Shown piece after piece: positions 25,619 through 38,496 of a stretch of DNA of 64,000 nt. The stretch is from a virus. The translations under genes were made by a program, and so were the position numbers. Numbering within the stretch: position 1 is the stretch's first letter; every line of letters begins with the position of its first letter. The stretch covers positions 1-64,000 of IMG/VR virus record IMGVR_UViG_3300021962_000097; one strand, written 5' to 3'. Below the pieces are notes generated by a model, which was given only the letters and a program-made list of their open reading frames with translations, ran no database searches and had not been told where the DNA came from.

Positions 25619-25856
25619 TGATATAATGAGTGCGTTTCGAACTTATTTCGAAGCAAACCAAAAGTGGGAAGTAGAAAGGACCAAACGGTCTTCTATACAA
25701 CTACGGCAAAGTCTAAGTAGAATTAGAGAACTATGCTCAGATCAGCGTGTAATTGTACGTGAGTGGGCAAGGATTAAAGAGGCAGAACTAGCAGAAAAAG
25801 AAGCAAGAAGACAGGCTCAAAAGAGGCAGAAGACGGAAGGCAGCAATGATAACTAA
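25602..25856 (+). CDS. Small basic helical protein of unknown function
   Basis: This 84-aa protein is predicted to be almost entirely helical, with a basic middle (KRSSIQLRQSLSRIREL at about 28-44) and a charged Lys/Arg/Glu-rich C-terminus. It overlaps gp46 by 17 nt. A small helical Lys/Arg/Ala-rich protein after gp46 is common in aquatic T4-like phages as I recall, sometimes described as histone-like. DNA or RNA binding is only a guess from charge. The start is ATG inside gp46 with an upstream AGATGAG-type weak site, so translation is probably coupled. Confidence 0.7.
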   Translation: MSSKHDDIMSAFRTYFEANQKWEVERTKRSSIQLRQSLSRIRELCSDQRVIVREWARIKEAELAEKEARRQAQKRQKTEGSNDN

Positions 25857-25861
25857 GTGCC

Positions 25862-26287
25862 ATGACATGGTACTTCCAAAATGAAATCGTTGAATCGCTG
25901 CCCGAAGATTGCGTTGGGTTTGTATATCTAATTACAAATCTTACCACAGGCAGAAAATATATAGGCAAAAAATTAGCCAAATTTAGTAAAACAACATATA
26001 AAACAGTAAAATTAAAAAACGGAAGTAAAAAGAAAAAGAAAATTCGAAGCAAAATTGACTCCGATTGGAGAGATTATTACGGTTCGAATATAGAATTAAG
26101 CAAAGACATAGAGACACTAGGCAAAGAAAATTTCAAACGAGAGATAATGTTTTACTGTAAAAGTAAAGCAGAATGTTCTTACATAGAGGCCAGAGAACAA
26201 TTTACACACAAAGTTCTAGAATCAAAAGATTACTATAACGGACAGATCTCAGTCCGTGTACATGGCTCACATATATTAAAATCATAG
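25862..26287 (+). CDS. GIY-YIG family nuclease (Seg/homing-type, free-standing)
   Basis: This 141-aa protein has the GIY-YIG fold signature near the N-terminus: GFVYLITN at 19-26 and KYIGKK at 32-37. A Lys-rich loop follows (NGSKKKKKIRSKI), then a helix containing the likely catalytic Glu (SYIEAREQF) and a closing DYYNGQ segment. Free-standing GIY-YIG nucleases of T4-like phages are often homing endonucleases. There is no visible extra DNA-binding module beyond the basic loop, so the specificity is unknown. It lies directly before the structured non-coding region, which recalls the pairing of homing nucleases with introns, but I see no interrupted gene. It starts 5 nt after the preceding gene without a strong ribosome site. 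Confidence 0.8.
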   Translation: MTWYFQNEIVESLPEDCVGFVYLITNLTTGRKYIGKKLAKFSKTTYKTVKLKNGSKKKKKIRSKIDSDWRDYYGSNIELSKDIETLGKENFKREIMFYCKSKAECSYIEAREQFTHKVLESKDYYNGQISVRVHGSHILKS

Positions 26288-26722
26288 GCTCATAAGCGGT
26301 ATAAGCAAGCACAAGCTAAAGTCGTGTGCCCACGCCAACTCGATAATAAGAGGGACGGAAATCTCTAGCCGCCAGAGTACTCAACCACTACCCGAAAGGA
26401 TGAGGATAGCAAAGCCCTTGCTGTTTGGTTGTTTTAGAATAATAGGCGAAATGAGGGAGAAAAACCCACGTTTACTGGCATGTTAGCGTATGCAAGTAGA
26501 CCGCCGTCGTAATAAAGACTCTGCTCGTGGTACCGGACGACCGCCACTGTAATGCAGTAACGCTAGGTGACACATGTTCGACTCGGATAATGTACACTTC
26601 TTTGCCCGGCCTGGGCAAAGTGTGACTGAACGATCTGGATAATATATTAAGTGCTTCGCACAATTACTTCTAGAAAAAAGCATTGAGCGTAGCGAAATGC
26701 AAGTGAGCTCTAGCTCACTTTT
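26288..26722 (+). ncRNA. Candidate large structured non-coding RNA, family unknown
   Basis: This gene-less stretch between the GIY-YIG gene and the next ORF is about 47% G+C by my count over 26281-26700 (196 of 420), against about 35% nearby. Helices I can pair by hand: 26323-26326/26331-26334; 26373-26378/26518-26523 (CAGAGT/ACTCTG) enclosing 26382-26387/26426-26431 (CAACCA/TGGTTG); inside that a CC-GAAA-GG tetraloop hairpin and 26408-26412/26418-26422; 26473-26481/26490-26498 with one mismatch; 26527-26530/26544-26547 stacked on 26534-26536/26541-26543; 26594-26597/26620-26623 around 26601-26607/26613-26619; 26651-26654/26658-26661; 26680-26684/26696-26700. The loop 26484-26489 (TAGCGT) can pair with 26560-26565 (ACGCTA), a pseudoknot. 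A terminator ends it on the plus strand. The 5' end and promoter are not identified. Confidence 0.65.
26701..26722 (+). terminator. Intrinsic terminator at the end of the candidate RNA
   Basis: AAGTGAGC (26701-26708) pairs with GCTCACTT (26713-26720) around a four-base loop, and T residues at 26719-26722 follow. The minus-strand side lacks a T tract, so it works rightward. It separates the early gp55-gp46 unit and RNA region from the late gene downstream. Confidence 0.75.
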
Positions 26723-26730
26723 AATAAATA
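26723..26730 (+). promoter_or_regulatory. Late promoter box (AATAAATA) directly after the terminator
   Basis: AATAAATA begins at the base after the terminator T run and ends 20 nt before the ATG at 26751. The terminator-plus-late-box arrangement hands transcription over from the early unit to the late unit. Confidence 0.65.
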
Positions 26731-26750
26731 GATTATTATTCAATGATCTT

Positions 26751-27680
26751 ATGAAATTTAAAGAAATTATCTCAGAAGCTAATAGACAAGGAAGTGGTCT
26801 ATTAGGTCCGATGGTTACAACTCCTTCTGGTATACAGATACCTATGTGGCCTAGTGCCAGTTTATCTGCTAGGTCAAGTCCTCCTCCTGCACCTAAGACA
26901 AAGACCGGTGGTGAAAAACTCACGCAGTACTCTAAGATACTTGGTAAAAAAGGTCTTAGAATATTGGGCAGCGATAGATATCGCCCTTATCTTACCAGTA
27001 AGAGCGACGCAATAAAAAATGGTGCAAGATTTCTAAGAATATGGCAATTTCTTGGCTTTGGGGAAATGCTGTTAGATTTCTTCAATACCAAGGCAACCTT
27101 AGAAATAATGAAAGGCCTTCCAAACAACGATCCCAGTTATATCACTGAAGAAGAATATGATACTAATGTTAGACAAGCTGGAGAAATACTAGCCTTACAA
27201 ATACTAGCCAGTGAAGCATTTCCTAGACTATTACAGGCTATGAGCTTAGGTAAATGGATAGTAAGGATCATAGGGTTTTTTGGTACAGCAGCTAGTTGGG
27301 GCGCAACACTTGCACTTTTTGTAGCTTCTGAAGTGGCTATGATAGCGTTTCAAAGGTGGTTAATGAGCCCTGAGGGTAAAAAAGCTCTAAGTTATTTGGT
27401 AGTCTACTGTGTAGATCCCTTGCTTACTTGGATGTATCCTACAAGTTTAATCAACAAGATCAAAGAGCTAGTGGGCATGGAACAGGATAAAAAGCCAGAC
27501 GAAACAAAGCCTGATGATGGCAACAAACCTTCTACAAATTCAAATCAAGCTGCACAACCCGACACCGGTGCAAGAACAGATACTACTATAAGAACACCAA
27601 ATGTACCTTCTAGCTATCAAGGTAATCCTAACGATCTAATGACGAAGCCACCTAAAAAAGAGCCTTTGCCCTTTAGTTAA
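26751..27680 (+). CDS. Putative membrane-associated virion or late protein, unknown function
   Basis: This 309-aa protein starts MKFKEIISEANRQGSG. I chose ATG 26751 because the longer frame back to 26697 would begin upstream of the terminator stem, and the late box puts the RNA start near 26735. Features: a Pro-rich segment (SSPPPAPK near 44-51); a basic region (KKGLRILGSDRYRPY near 66-80); hydrophobic stretches near 97-110 and 175-215 (IVRIIGFFGTAASWGATLAL) that could be two membrane helices; and a long Asp/Lys/Asn/Pro-rich tail from about 245. I do not recognise a family. The position beside hub genes and the late promoter suggest a structural or membrane-directed late role (for example in DNA entry or lysis), but that is inference. 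Confidence 0.75.
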   Translation: MKFKEIISEANRQGSGLLGPMVTTPSGIQIPMWPSASLSARSSPPPAPKTKTGGEKLTQYSKILGKKGLRILGSDRYRPYLTSKSDAIKNGARFLRIWQFLGFGEMLLDFFNTKATLEIMKGLPNNDPSYITEEEYDTNVRQAGEILALQILASEAFPRLLQAMSLGKWIVRIIGFFGTAASWGATLALFVASEVAMIAFQRWLMSPEGKKALSYLVVYCVDPLLTWMYPTSLINKIKELVGMEQDKKPDETKPDDGNKPSTNSNQAAQPDTGARTDTTIRTPNVPSSYQGNPNDLMTKPPKKEPLPFS

Positions 27681-27897: not shown

Positions 27898-28722
27898 TTA
27901 AACGCCGACGAAAAAATTTGATTGATCCATTTGAATTGCAACACTGCTTTCATGGTCGCATGAGTCGCACTTGACCTGCATGTCGGGCACTCGCCAAGTT
28001 TGATTATTTTTGTCTATCTGCGCTTTGATAGCATCAAACATGCTTTTCTCACTGTTGACAATCCACTCCGTGATATACTCTCGCTCGTTTACCGCTCCAG
28101 TAGGTGCTTGCACACTGTCAATGCTGGCTATGTAAGATTCGTTTTGGATTACAGCCAACTTTTCATAGAGTTCAGCTATTATTTTATTTTTAGCATCTTC
28201 ATCTTCTATGGTCAATGCTTGCCGTAGCTGCCTTTGCAGTTCAAAGTTTTTTAAGTTAAAGTCAGTCATAGACTTATAATCTAGAGGACGTATAAAGATT
28301 GTCAACTCCTCAACAGACACTCTATTATCATATTTGCAGTTACTGAAATGATCTACTAATGTCATTAGGTCAACGGTATAGTCATTTTCTGCTGCACAAT
28401 TTGGACAGATATGTCCCACAGTCATATTAGTACCGTAGGTAGCTATGCGTATGGATATTAAGAGTAGATCAAGATCAAGATTGCAGACTTCCCAAGCATT
28501 TCTAATATTGGGCACACAGCTTTGTATAACTCTAACTGTGGCTTCTCCATTCATCAATGCATCTGGAGTTTTGAGCAGAAGTTCGTCCATGCCAGTCATT
28601 GACATAACAGGCAGTTGTCCTGCAGCATTGTCTATGGCATCAGCACTAGAGTATATGCCCTGACTGGGCAATTGAATAAAAATTTTAGGCTGACGAAAAT
28701 ATTTTTGCAGCGGATTTGACAT
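27898..28722 (-). CDS. 26: Baseplate hub protein gp26
   Basis: This 274-aa hub protein opens with NPLQKYFRQPKIFIQLPSQG, a start typical of gp26 in T4-like phages. Two CxxC pairs (HICPNCAAEN near residue 123 and VKCDSCDHES near 253) could bind a zinc ion, as in related tail proteins with a zinc-ribbon-like pair. A long helical region lies between (about 175-245). T4 gp26 is 208 aa. It is the first gene of a two-gene leftward unit, with a perfect TATAAATA late box 31 nt upstream. Hub location next to the tape measure gene is the conserved T4 logic. Confidence 0.85.
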   Translation of the reverse strand: MSNPLQKYFRQPKIFIQLPSQGIYSSADAIDNAAGQLPVMSMTGMDELLLKTPDALMNGEATVRVIQSCVPNIRNAWEVCNLDLDLLLISIRIATYGTNMTVGHICPNCAAENDYTVDLMTLVDHFSNCKYDNRVSVEELTIFIRPLDYKSMTDFNLKNFELQRQLRQALTIEDEDAKNKIIAELYEKLAVIQNESYIASIDSVQAPTGAVNEREYITEWIVNSEKSMFDAIKAQIDKNNQTWRVPDMQVKCDSCDHESSVAIQMDQSNFFVGV

Positions 28723-37398: not shown

Positions 37399-37406
37399 CA
37401 TAAATA
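37399..37406 (+). promoter_or_regulatory. Late promoter box (CATAAATA) before the hairpin-rich leader
   Basis: CATAAATA begins directly after the stop codon of the oxygenase-like gene. A start near 37411 would give an RNA leader of about 80 nt consisting almost entirely of hairpins before the next gene. Confidence 0.62.
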
Positions 37407-37415
37407 CATTGTACG

Positions 37416-37471
37416 ACTTACATTCCGTAAGTTTTATGCGGAAATCCGACCGCGTACGGCCTAGAACGCCG
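37416..37471 (+). promoter_or_regulatory. Hairpin-rich 5' leader of the downstream virion gene
   Basis: Hairpins in order: ACTTAC/GTAAGT (37416-37421 with 37427-37432); CGG-AAAT-CCG (37439-37448); CCG-CGTA-CGG (37450-37459). The last competes with CGGC/GCCG (37457-37460 with 37468-37471), and GCGG (37438-37441) can alternatively pair CCGC (37450-37453). These are mutually exclusive folds ending 7 nt before the AAGGAGA ribosome site. It could be an mRNA stabiliser, processing signal or translational switch. Confidence 0.5.
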
Positions 37472-37491
37472 CTTTTCAAGGAGAAAATAAA

Positions 37492-38496
37492 ATGGGACGT
37501 CCTCTAAACAAAAAATATTTTGGTAACCGAAATTTTGGTCGTGCAGGCGATCAAACAGCTGGCCCTAATTCAAACAGTCAAAACTATGCAGATGATAACA
37601 TCGGCGGCGAAGGTATCTCTTCTTATATACTACCAGGCCAACTAGGTAATATTGAAGTCGATAGTGATAGCGGTCAACCAGATCTAGTAATACCAGCACC
37701 TCAAATCCCAGGCGGCGTACAAGCCACTGCTACAGTAACTTGGGAAGTTTCTACTATTACAATTACTGATACTAACGACTACGGCACAGGATATGTTAAT
37801 GGTGAAACTGTGACATTTACAGGCCCAACAGGAGTTACTGCTACAGTAACCGTTGCTTCAGATGATATTACTGGTTTTACTATTGTTAATCGCGGTAGTT
37901 TTACAACTCTTCCAACAGGCGGATCATATCAAGTAGTCGGAGCAGTAGGTAATGATGCACAAGCAGAAATTACATGGCGTGTTAAGACCATTGTTATGAA
38001 TGAAAAAGGTTCAGGCTATACAACTGCTCCAACACTAAGCTGGGCGGCTGGCGAAGCAGGTCCTATCTCTGGCACAAGTCCAGGAGCACCAACTGCTGTA
38101 CTATCTACTGATTCAGGTATTATCGGCTCAGCAACTAATCAAGAAAACGCAATCATCATCCATGCTAACACAGGTAATGAAGGCGATCAAATTGGAGACA
38201 TTATTCGTCAAGTATCAACTCGCCGTTATAAAGTTAAAACAGCAGACGGTATTAGAATTTGTCAACTAACAGACGACGATACACCAGGCGTAGGATATGC
38301 CTACATTCAAGCTACAGATGACAACGGTAATACATACTTTGTTATGAAGTTGACATCAAAACTTGCTGTTCTTAAACAATGGACTAATAACGAAGCTGAA
38401 TGGCTATTTGCAGACAATGAAAGAGCACACTGGGTATTTTCAGATACTGAAAATTCATACAGCGCAGCTGATACAGTTGTAATTGAAAACGCTTAA
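37492..38496 (+). CDS. Virion structural protein of the MGRPLNKKYFG family
   Basis: This 334-aa protein begins MGRPLNKKYFGNRNFG, a start I know from many aquatic T4-like phages after gp23; function there is unknown but it is assumed to be a virion protein. Residues about 75-200 hold two GSGY/GTGY beta modules (YGTGYVNGETVTFTGPTG and GSGYTTAPTLSW). The C-terminal third (RYKVKTADGIRICQLTDDD, then ENAIIIHANT upstream and WLFADNERAHWVFSDTEN near the end) is a separate compact domain. The gene has an excellent ribosome site and a structured leader, suggesting high expression. It may be a head decoration protein or a neck/fibre component. Confidence 0.8.
   Translation: MGRPLNKKYFGNRNFGRAGDQTAGPNSNSQNYADDNIGGEGISSYILPGQLGNIEVDSDSGQPDLVIPAPQIPGGVQATATVTWEVSTITITDTNDYGTGYVNGETVTFTGPTGVTATVTVASDDITGFTIVNRGSFTTLPTGGSYQVVGAVGNDAQAEITWRVKTIVMNEKGSGYTTAPTLSWAAGEAGPISGTSPGAPTAVLSTDSGIIGSATNQENAIIIHANTGNEGDQIGDIIRQVSTRRYKVKTADGIRICQLTDDDTPGVGYAYIQATDDNGNTYFVMKLTSKLAVLKQWTNNEAEWLFADNERAHWVFSDTENSYSAADTVVIENA

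Follow-up and report, generated by a model that had tools for sequence, protein, structure and literature searches.

The 64,000-nt stretch of viral DNA analyzed here (the window) raises the question of what lies at positions 26288 to 26722, where a sequence-only reading had claimed a gap without a supported gene, raised G+C content, and a candidate large structured noncoding RNA. The gap is real: the upstream GIY-YIG gene stops at 26287, and the next supported gene opens at an ATG at 26751, with a further in-frame ATG at 26697. The G+C content of 26288-26722 is indeed raised (46.7%, compared with 36.4% and 39.3% in the 2-kb flanks), a value reached by 2.0% of 435-bp windows. Conserved protein-coding potential, which would speak against a noncoding RNA, was not supported: in the seven frames compared, an internal stop interrupted 17% to 53% of the translated matches in relatives, and about half of them in five of these frames. 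Counting against a noncoding assignment, some frame of at least 60 codons from a loose start is present in 66 of the 128 RNAs aligned below. The folding energy of the region gave a z of −1.26, with 9 of 100 shuffles folding equally well. Folding energy alone is thus insufficient, and a structured RNA is evident here because of conservation and covariation.

The covariance-model search that had been proposed for this region was run with Rfam and yielded one strong match at the gap, RF01718 (Polynucleobacter-1), which scored above the gathering score across the whole model. The sequence-only reading could not match the region to tRNA, tmRNA, RNase P, or a group I core, and none of these matched in our analysis either (for tRNA and tmRNA, ARAGORN found 0 genes in the window and Rfam gave no match). 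However, since the 5′ third corresponds to an Rfam orphan, the region can be matched. The RF01718 consensus helices are retained, and the corresponding helices P1, P4, and P5 are 95 to 98% canonical in relatives. The features of the locus are:

25862-26287, + strand: GIY-YIG protein gene (Pfam SegE_GIY-YIG, 115.7 bits, cut-off 25; 141 aa), the constant upstream neighbor
26297-26650, + strand: whole conserved RNA as matched by the relatives' HMM (nhmmer envelope, 279.3 bits; 128-RNA alignment)
26304-26434, + strand: part matched by RF01718, full model 1-141 (80.9 bits, cut-off 37, E 1.4e-15 for the window)
26701-26722, + strand: hairpin ending in TTTT, a possible terminator seen in the sequence, not general among relatives
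27898-28722, − strand: T4-like baseplate protein gene (Pfam T4_baseplate, 45.8 bits), the convergent downstream neighbor

Conservation extends beyond the 141-position RF01718 model. Relatives of the GIY-YIG gene were taken from viral contigs (the best 80 of 584), and in these the conserved DNA behind the gene spans from the stop codon to about 26660; RF01718 scored above its cut-off in 34 of 40 related records. Independently of genes, viral DNA was scanned with a 23-bp conserved pattern near the 3′ end, which returned at least 120 stretches. An HMM built on the entire region matched each of the 119 loci examined; the match was full length in 109, and in the other 10 it was truncated where the contig ended. 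A predicted RNA of about 350 nt is therefore encoded on the plus strand at 26297-26650, reaching about 26650 at its 3′ end, and RF01718 is its 5′ third only. The longer RNA, which we call form a, extends the RF01718 family, and its greater length is no ground for taking it out of that family.

For analysis of the structure, 199 regions were reduced to 128 RNAs with a mean pairwise identity of 60%, at least one of which (L067) carries the string of form c, described below. Covariation was scored with APC correction against a null of 20 tree-simulated alignments, and the E-values quoted come from this simulation of our own, not from R-scape. Covariation in relatives, which the sequence-only reading had suggested looking for, was found: 22 column pairs beat all 20 nulls, comprising 19 base-pair-like pairs, 2 same-base pairs, and 1 (26391/26401) that is neither. 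In ten helices, two of them pseudoknots, canonical pairs fill 5528 of 5730 cells across the 128 RNAs (96.5%), and 38 of the 45 pairs show at least two Watson-Crick types:

26310-26328, + strand: P1, 26310-26313/26325-26328; 97.8% canonical; 4/4 pairs with at least two Watson-Crick types; two pairs covary
26382-26431, + strand: P4, 26382-26387/26426-26431, a helix of the sequence-only reading; 98.2% canonical; three pairs covary above all nulls
26407-26423, + strand: P5, 26407-26410/26420-26423; 95.1% canonical; 26408/26422 covary
26456-26467, + strand: P6, 26456-26457/26466-26467; 94.1% canonical; 26457/26466 covary
26470-26501, + strand: P7, 26470-26474/26497-26501, enclosing P8; 93.4% canonical; 26471/26500 covary
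26479-26492, + strand: P8, 26479-26482/26489-26492, inside P7; 94.5% canonical; 26481/26490 covary
26484-26565, + strand: pseudoknot PK9, P8 loop 26484-26489 with 26560-26565; 98.0% canonical; 6/6 pairs with at least two Watson-Crick types; single pairs reach E of only 0.15-0.35
26506-26541, + strand: pseudoknot PK10, 26506-26510 with P12 loop 26537-26541; 97.8% canonical; 26508/26539 covary
26521-26557, + strand: P11, 26521-26524/26554-26557, enclosing P12; 96.3% canonical; 26521/26557, 26522/26556, and 26523/26555 covary
26527-26547, + strand: P12, 26527-26531/26543-26547, inside P11; 96.9% canonical; 26528/26546 covary

PK9 and PK10 are interlocked, and both lie in the 3′ half of the RNA. 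Within the ten helices, G-U occurs in 588 cells and A-C in 43, which identifies the plus strand as the RNA. Slid controls were mostly 0.1 to 0.6 canonical, rising to 0.82 for P8 and P12. Because RNAalifold run on MAFFT alignments gave only fragments of the structure, the helices listed above were drawn from covariation and from canonical fractions. Candidate helices P2, P3, and P4a were dropped because their register varies or they fit poorly. One of the two helices that had been named from the sequence, P4, was exactly right; the other, 26373-26378/26518-26523, was unsupported, being 43.6% canonical in the 128 RNAs. The strands of this rejected helix partly covary elsewhere, at 26361/26378 and 26521-26523/26555-26557. 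With the full-length RF01718 match, 22 column pairs above the nulls, and G-U tolerated where A-C is not, the proposal of a large structured noncoding RNA is borne out, and we regard a structured RNA at this locus as practically certain. A hairpin near 26337-26351 is swapped in relatives among unrelated versions (CCTGGATCTCGGATCACAGG, ACTCGATAATAAGAG, CCGTTCTGATGTGTGACGG, and others). Some of these versions have a GATAAT-like loop that resembles the 3′ element described below, yet they do not change in lockstep with it.

The slot behind the GIY-YIG gene can also hold two other RNA bodies, forms b and c, instead of form a. Both are common, with form b in at least 120 stretches and form c in 108, and nine of their loci examined with Rfam (form b: L030, L031, L033, L046, L056, and L073; form c: L022, L065, and L067) gave no match of their own. 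A GIY-YIG gene lies upstream, at any distance, in 96 of 103 form-b and 90 of 91 form-c loci, and the baseplate gene lies downstream in 73 of 77 and 59 of 62, respectively. Each form has covarying pairs above all nulls (eight for form b in 82 rows, six for form c in 63 rows). GGUACCGG-CAACCGCC is common to forms a and b, and the PK10 pairing is shared by eye, while form c bears only a weak resemblance to form a beyond the 3′ module. One of the RNA forms is present in each of the 68 GIY-YIG loci that have at least 430 nt downstream (66 by HMM and 2 by the form-c string), and the form switches 54 times on the GIY-YIG tree, which is itself weakly supported. Isolated phages showed no DNA similarity, near or distant, to the window region or to forms a, b, and c; RF01718, the one model searched there, was absent from eight isolates, and it matched 0 of 369 genomes of one class in a search that had no positive control. 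In prokaryote contigs, the 23-bp pattern had 14 exact matches, none of them confirmed by the HMM and consistent with chance (best E 0.047).

Comparison of the three bodies revealed that all end in the same arrangement, two 14-nt elements flanking a hairpin. The element consensus is NA-(CUC or UCU)-RSAURAW, with CUC in the first copy and UCU in the second, and each element follows GUGAC or a variant of it. In the window the module comprises:

26567-26593, + strand: repeat unit 1, GUGAC at 26567-26571, then element GACUCGGAUAAUGU at 26580-26593; columns 26585, 26586, 26589, and 26591 identical with copy 2
26600-26620, + strand: P13, hairpin between the repeat copies, 26600-26607/26613-26620; 89.5% canonical in form a
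26622-26645, + strand: repeat unit 2, GUGAC at 26622-26626, then element GAUCUGGAUAAUAU at 26632-26645; 26637 equals 26585, and 26641 equals 26589, in 128/128

The inter-copy hairpin is always present in forms b and c but with other stem sequences, and its median stem is 8, 10, and 10 in forms a, b, and c compared with 5, 5, and 4 in shuffles. The copies are spaced 47-60 nt apart, with no single preferred length.

The two copies change in lockstep. In the 128 RNAs, columns 26585/26637 read AA in 60 and GG in 68, columns 26589/26641 AA in 84 and GG in 44, and columns 26586/26638 GG in 123 and CC in 5; 26591 and 26643 are alike in the 127 listed, and 26580 and 26632 are alike in 97, with T/A in 24. 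When raw sequences were searched by pattern, the 7-nt core was identical between the copies in 151 of 152 form-a, 94 of 94 form-b, and 69 of 73 form-c modules, the discordant cores belonging to one form-a and four form-c RNAs; the pattern itself fixes some of the letters, and it did not recognize a module in 2 of 154 form-a and 8 of 102 form-b sequences. The core frequently differs from phage to phage. On a tree of 269 GIY-YIG proteins, its first letter (X) changes 56 times per copy, and on supported branches the two copies agree in the direction of change in 13 of 13 independent pairs (sign test, p ≈ 0.0002). For the fifth letter they agree in 6 of 6 (p 0.03). The form-b alignment, taken by itself, shows the same two same-base column pairs; the form-c alignment showed no significant same-base pair. 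No partner columns for the lockstep columns were found inside the RNA, nor is there base pairing between the two sites. Very probably, the lockstep arises because both copies must satisfy the same requirement. For two unpaired elements to change in step is uncommon in evolution, and we know of no other RNA family in which this is seen. It points to something outside the RNA that reads both copies and gives the exact letters with which that reader could be fished out.

Several candidate explanations of the module were set aside. Ribosome hopping between matched codons does not fit, as the matching exceeds one codon and the distances to GUGAC vary out of frame. A CsrA sponge was rejected on the ground that GGA is missing in about half of the cores, and a promoter pair on the grounds that the core is too variable and that the exact core motif is no commoner in the window than by chance. 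The ends of a recombining or transposing element were rejected by reasoning only, from the conservation of the flanks.

The surroundings of the RNA bear on how it is made. Among the 97 form-a loci with 450 nt of upstream sequence, 91 have a GIY-YIG gene that ends no more than 400 nt before the RNA; among the other 6, the gene lies 800-1033 nt upstream with an intervening gene in 5 and was not found in 1. A convergent T4-like baseplate gene lies downstream in 86 of 90 form-a loci, and the next gene after the RNA in the window has relatives in 4 of 90. In form-a loci L133, L173, L126, L203, and L209 and in form-b loci L028, L031, and L032, differing genes of ~120-337 codons are inserted exactly behind the GIY-YIG gene, each with its end against the RNA. 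The boundary of the RNA seems to be an insertion point for genes. No sigma-70-like promoter was found on the plus strand in 25800-26900; given this and the abutting genes, the upstream transcript probably runs on into the RNA and has it as its tail. At the other end, the terminator and late promoter of the sequence-only reading are present as the TTTT hairpin at 26701-26722 and, directly after it, AATAAATA at 26723. However, they are not general: the hairpin was not among the sites listed by a consensus terminator scan, and terminator-like sites 3′ of the RNA occur in just 34 of 149 form-a relatives, compared with 13 in shuffles. Terminator and late promoter are thus traits of this genome and not of the RNA family.

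Each of the 17 viral records searched, with lengths of up to 345 and 355 kb, contains the RNA once. Among the 20 matches listed for the major capsid protein, the nearest are phages with records of 285-470 kb. The RNA is assigned by sequence to a lineage of large T4-like phages seen in environmental DNA, in which it lies directly behind the GIY-YIG gene. Four RNA-bearing phages have a longer lysine-rich stretch in the GIY-YIG protein (about residues 44-65) than do four isolates in which RF01718 was not found. Many SegE-like GIY-YIG genes in phage records (PHROG 447) are labeled "NAD synthetase," which looks like a propagated error.

As the best reading of these data, to which we give a probability of about 0.45, we propose that the RNA acts in trans as a scaffold whose tail would offer two equal sites to one sequence-specific factor. 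The RNA would be transcribed last, together with the upstream operon, and would then either stay attached or be cut out as a stable RNA. Its body would form the scaffold and the 3′ module a double docking site, most likely for a phage-encoded RNA-binding protein that binds as a dimer or as two copies. Drift in the specificity of this factor would force both sites to follow, giving lockstep change without base pairing between them. Comparison of the relatives shows the RNA, its structure, the lockstep, and the recurrence of the module in three bodies, and we infer trans action, a protein partner, and sequestering of the factor, as by a sponge; the last is a first guess for the bound complex, which may instead deliver the factor. 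Docking of a protein is put forward tentatively, with slightly less than even odds: frequent change in the specificity of a protein is not the simplest expectation and counts against it. Among the GIY-YIG, baseplate, and 84-aa proteins, no residue tracked the core at a family-wise level of 0.05 (the nearest, at 0.09, was in the baseplate protein), and RegA was not seen in 42 records, in a search with no positive control. It is also conceivable, if unlikely, that the RNA is an exchangeable identity cassette, its 3′ module bearing in duplicate a short, changeable address that is matched to a phage-encoded reader elsewhere in the genome. If so, each phage's RNA would work with its own reader only, and the swaps of body among forms a, b, and c, together with the two-copy change of address, would constitute a specificity system in phage-phage or phage-host conflict. 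To our knowledge, no specificity system of this kind has been described for RNA.

Two other readings connect the RNA to its upstream gene. In one, which we hold to be rather unlikely, it is a cis-acting 3′ UTR element that remains part of the gp47-gp46-GIY-YIG transcript, at its end, and serves to protect, terminate, or regulate that transcript. Such a role would fit an RNA that always lies behind an upstream gene, abutting the inserted gene where one separates it from the GIY-YIG gene, and for which no promoter of its own was found; moreover, the motif is listed as "cis-reg? y" in a table of Weinberg et al. 2010 (PMC2864571), although the default assumption there is a 5′ UTR. A 5′ UTR role is opposed by the lack of a conserved downstream gene, and the 3′ UTR role by the weak enrichment of terminator-like sites and by a size, two pseudoknots, and a double signature of an external partner that would exceed the needs of a stabilizer. 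In the other reading, the GIY-YIG protein would bind the RNA, and the two would act as a ribonucleoprotein nuclease, in the same layout as TnpB and the RNA downstream of it. All three forms lie behind the GIY-YIG gene, every GIY-YIG locus with sufficient downstream sequence holds one of them, and the lysine-rich stretch is longer in the RNA-bearing phages, a difference that is confounded with clade. There is also a precedent: PMC11061315 describes how the orphan RAGATH-18 RNAs, which lie directly behind a nuclease gene and have pseudoknots, turned out to be guide RNAs of IS607 TnpB. The likeness is one of layout, since the neighbor here is a SegE_GIY-YIG protein of 141 aa and not a RuvC-type nuclease, and a variable guide stretch is not apparent. 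Moreover, the protein family is also found in isolated phages without RF01718 (four with a fetched GIY-YIG gene), no GIY-YIG residue tracks the core, and the RNA form changes repeatedly on the weakly supported GIY-YIG tree, so that we judge this ribonucleoprotein improbable.

The remaining alternatives concern the lockstep itself. One RNA partner outside the phage, for example a host RNA, might pair with both copies, so that the lockstep would follow the host. Transitions (CUC/UCU, mostly G/A) account for the fixed differences between the copies, and a single strand could conceivably read both through G-U wobble. Within phage DNA, however, the complement of a phage's own core was not clearly enriched, either near the RNA (103 compared with 97.0 expected, 157 loci) or in 15 contigs (10 compared with 6.5), nor were wobble complements in those contigs (exact, 4 compared with 2.0; one mismatch, 48 compared with 48.5), and pairing with such a partner is doubtful at best. 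Direct repeats that share a changing core are a typical form of protein-binding site in DNA, and the copies could in principle be paired iterons or operators that overlap the RNA gene. There is a small excess of direct copies of the own core elsewhere (117 compared with 101.7 nearby, 157 loci; 10 compared with 6.5 in the 15 contigs), which is likewise no clear enrichment. The spread of the spacing over 47-60 nt without helical phasing, the occurrence of the matched pair only once in each of the 15 contigs, and a body that is clearly RNA make paired DNA sites very unlikely. Least probable is gene conversion or slippage between the repeats, which would keep the copies alike without any partner. 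Short-range homogenization would yield same-base columns, but the fixed CUC/UCU differences beside the matched core are hardly ever homogenized, and the stretch of likeness is just about 14 nt.

The family to which the 5′ third belongs appears in a table row of Weinberg et al. 2010 (PMC2864571), where Polynucleobacter-1 is given as probably an RNA and probably cis-regulatory, from Burkholderiales and from fresh water or estuary. The window and 34 of 40 related records match this model, in the window in its entirety. In contrast to the 131-141 nt of that motif, the conserved RNA here is about 350 nt and is found in phages, behind a GIY-YIG gene, with sister forms and a 3′ module that is missing from the model. 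It shares with GOLLD and ROOL, as described in PMC12286853, the character of a large, pseudoknotted phage RNA without a known partner. However, many GOLLD RNAs are over 800 nt (PMC12286853), and the RNA here is not beside tRNA genes, with 0 tRNAs in the window. Similarity to these two RNAs had not been claimed, and indeed Rfam gave no match to either, in the window at gathering scores or in 26200-26800 at E up to 5. Of the present findings, the 5′ third (RF01718) was already known; in the open-licence literature searched, no paper was found that describes the RNA at full length, its home in phages, its forms b and c, or the lockstep. A 141-nt orphan motif has thus grown into a whole phage RNA of about 350 nt. 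It comes with sister forms, a genome to which it belongs, and a neighbor that stays constant, and this makes its function testable.

The window holds one further match of this kind. Rfam RF02980 (freshwater-2) matches at full length at 37416-37494 on the plus strand (70.9 bits, cut-off 49.9); no paper on "freshwater-2" as an RNA motif was found in the open-licence literature. This RNA lies directly after CATAAATA at 37399, and its end overlaps the ATG at 37492 of a 334-aa gene. With it, the phage has two known orphan RNAs, this one in the position of a 5′ UTR.
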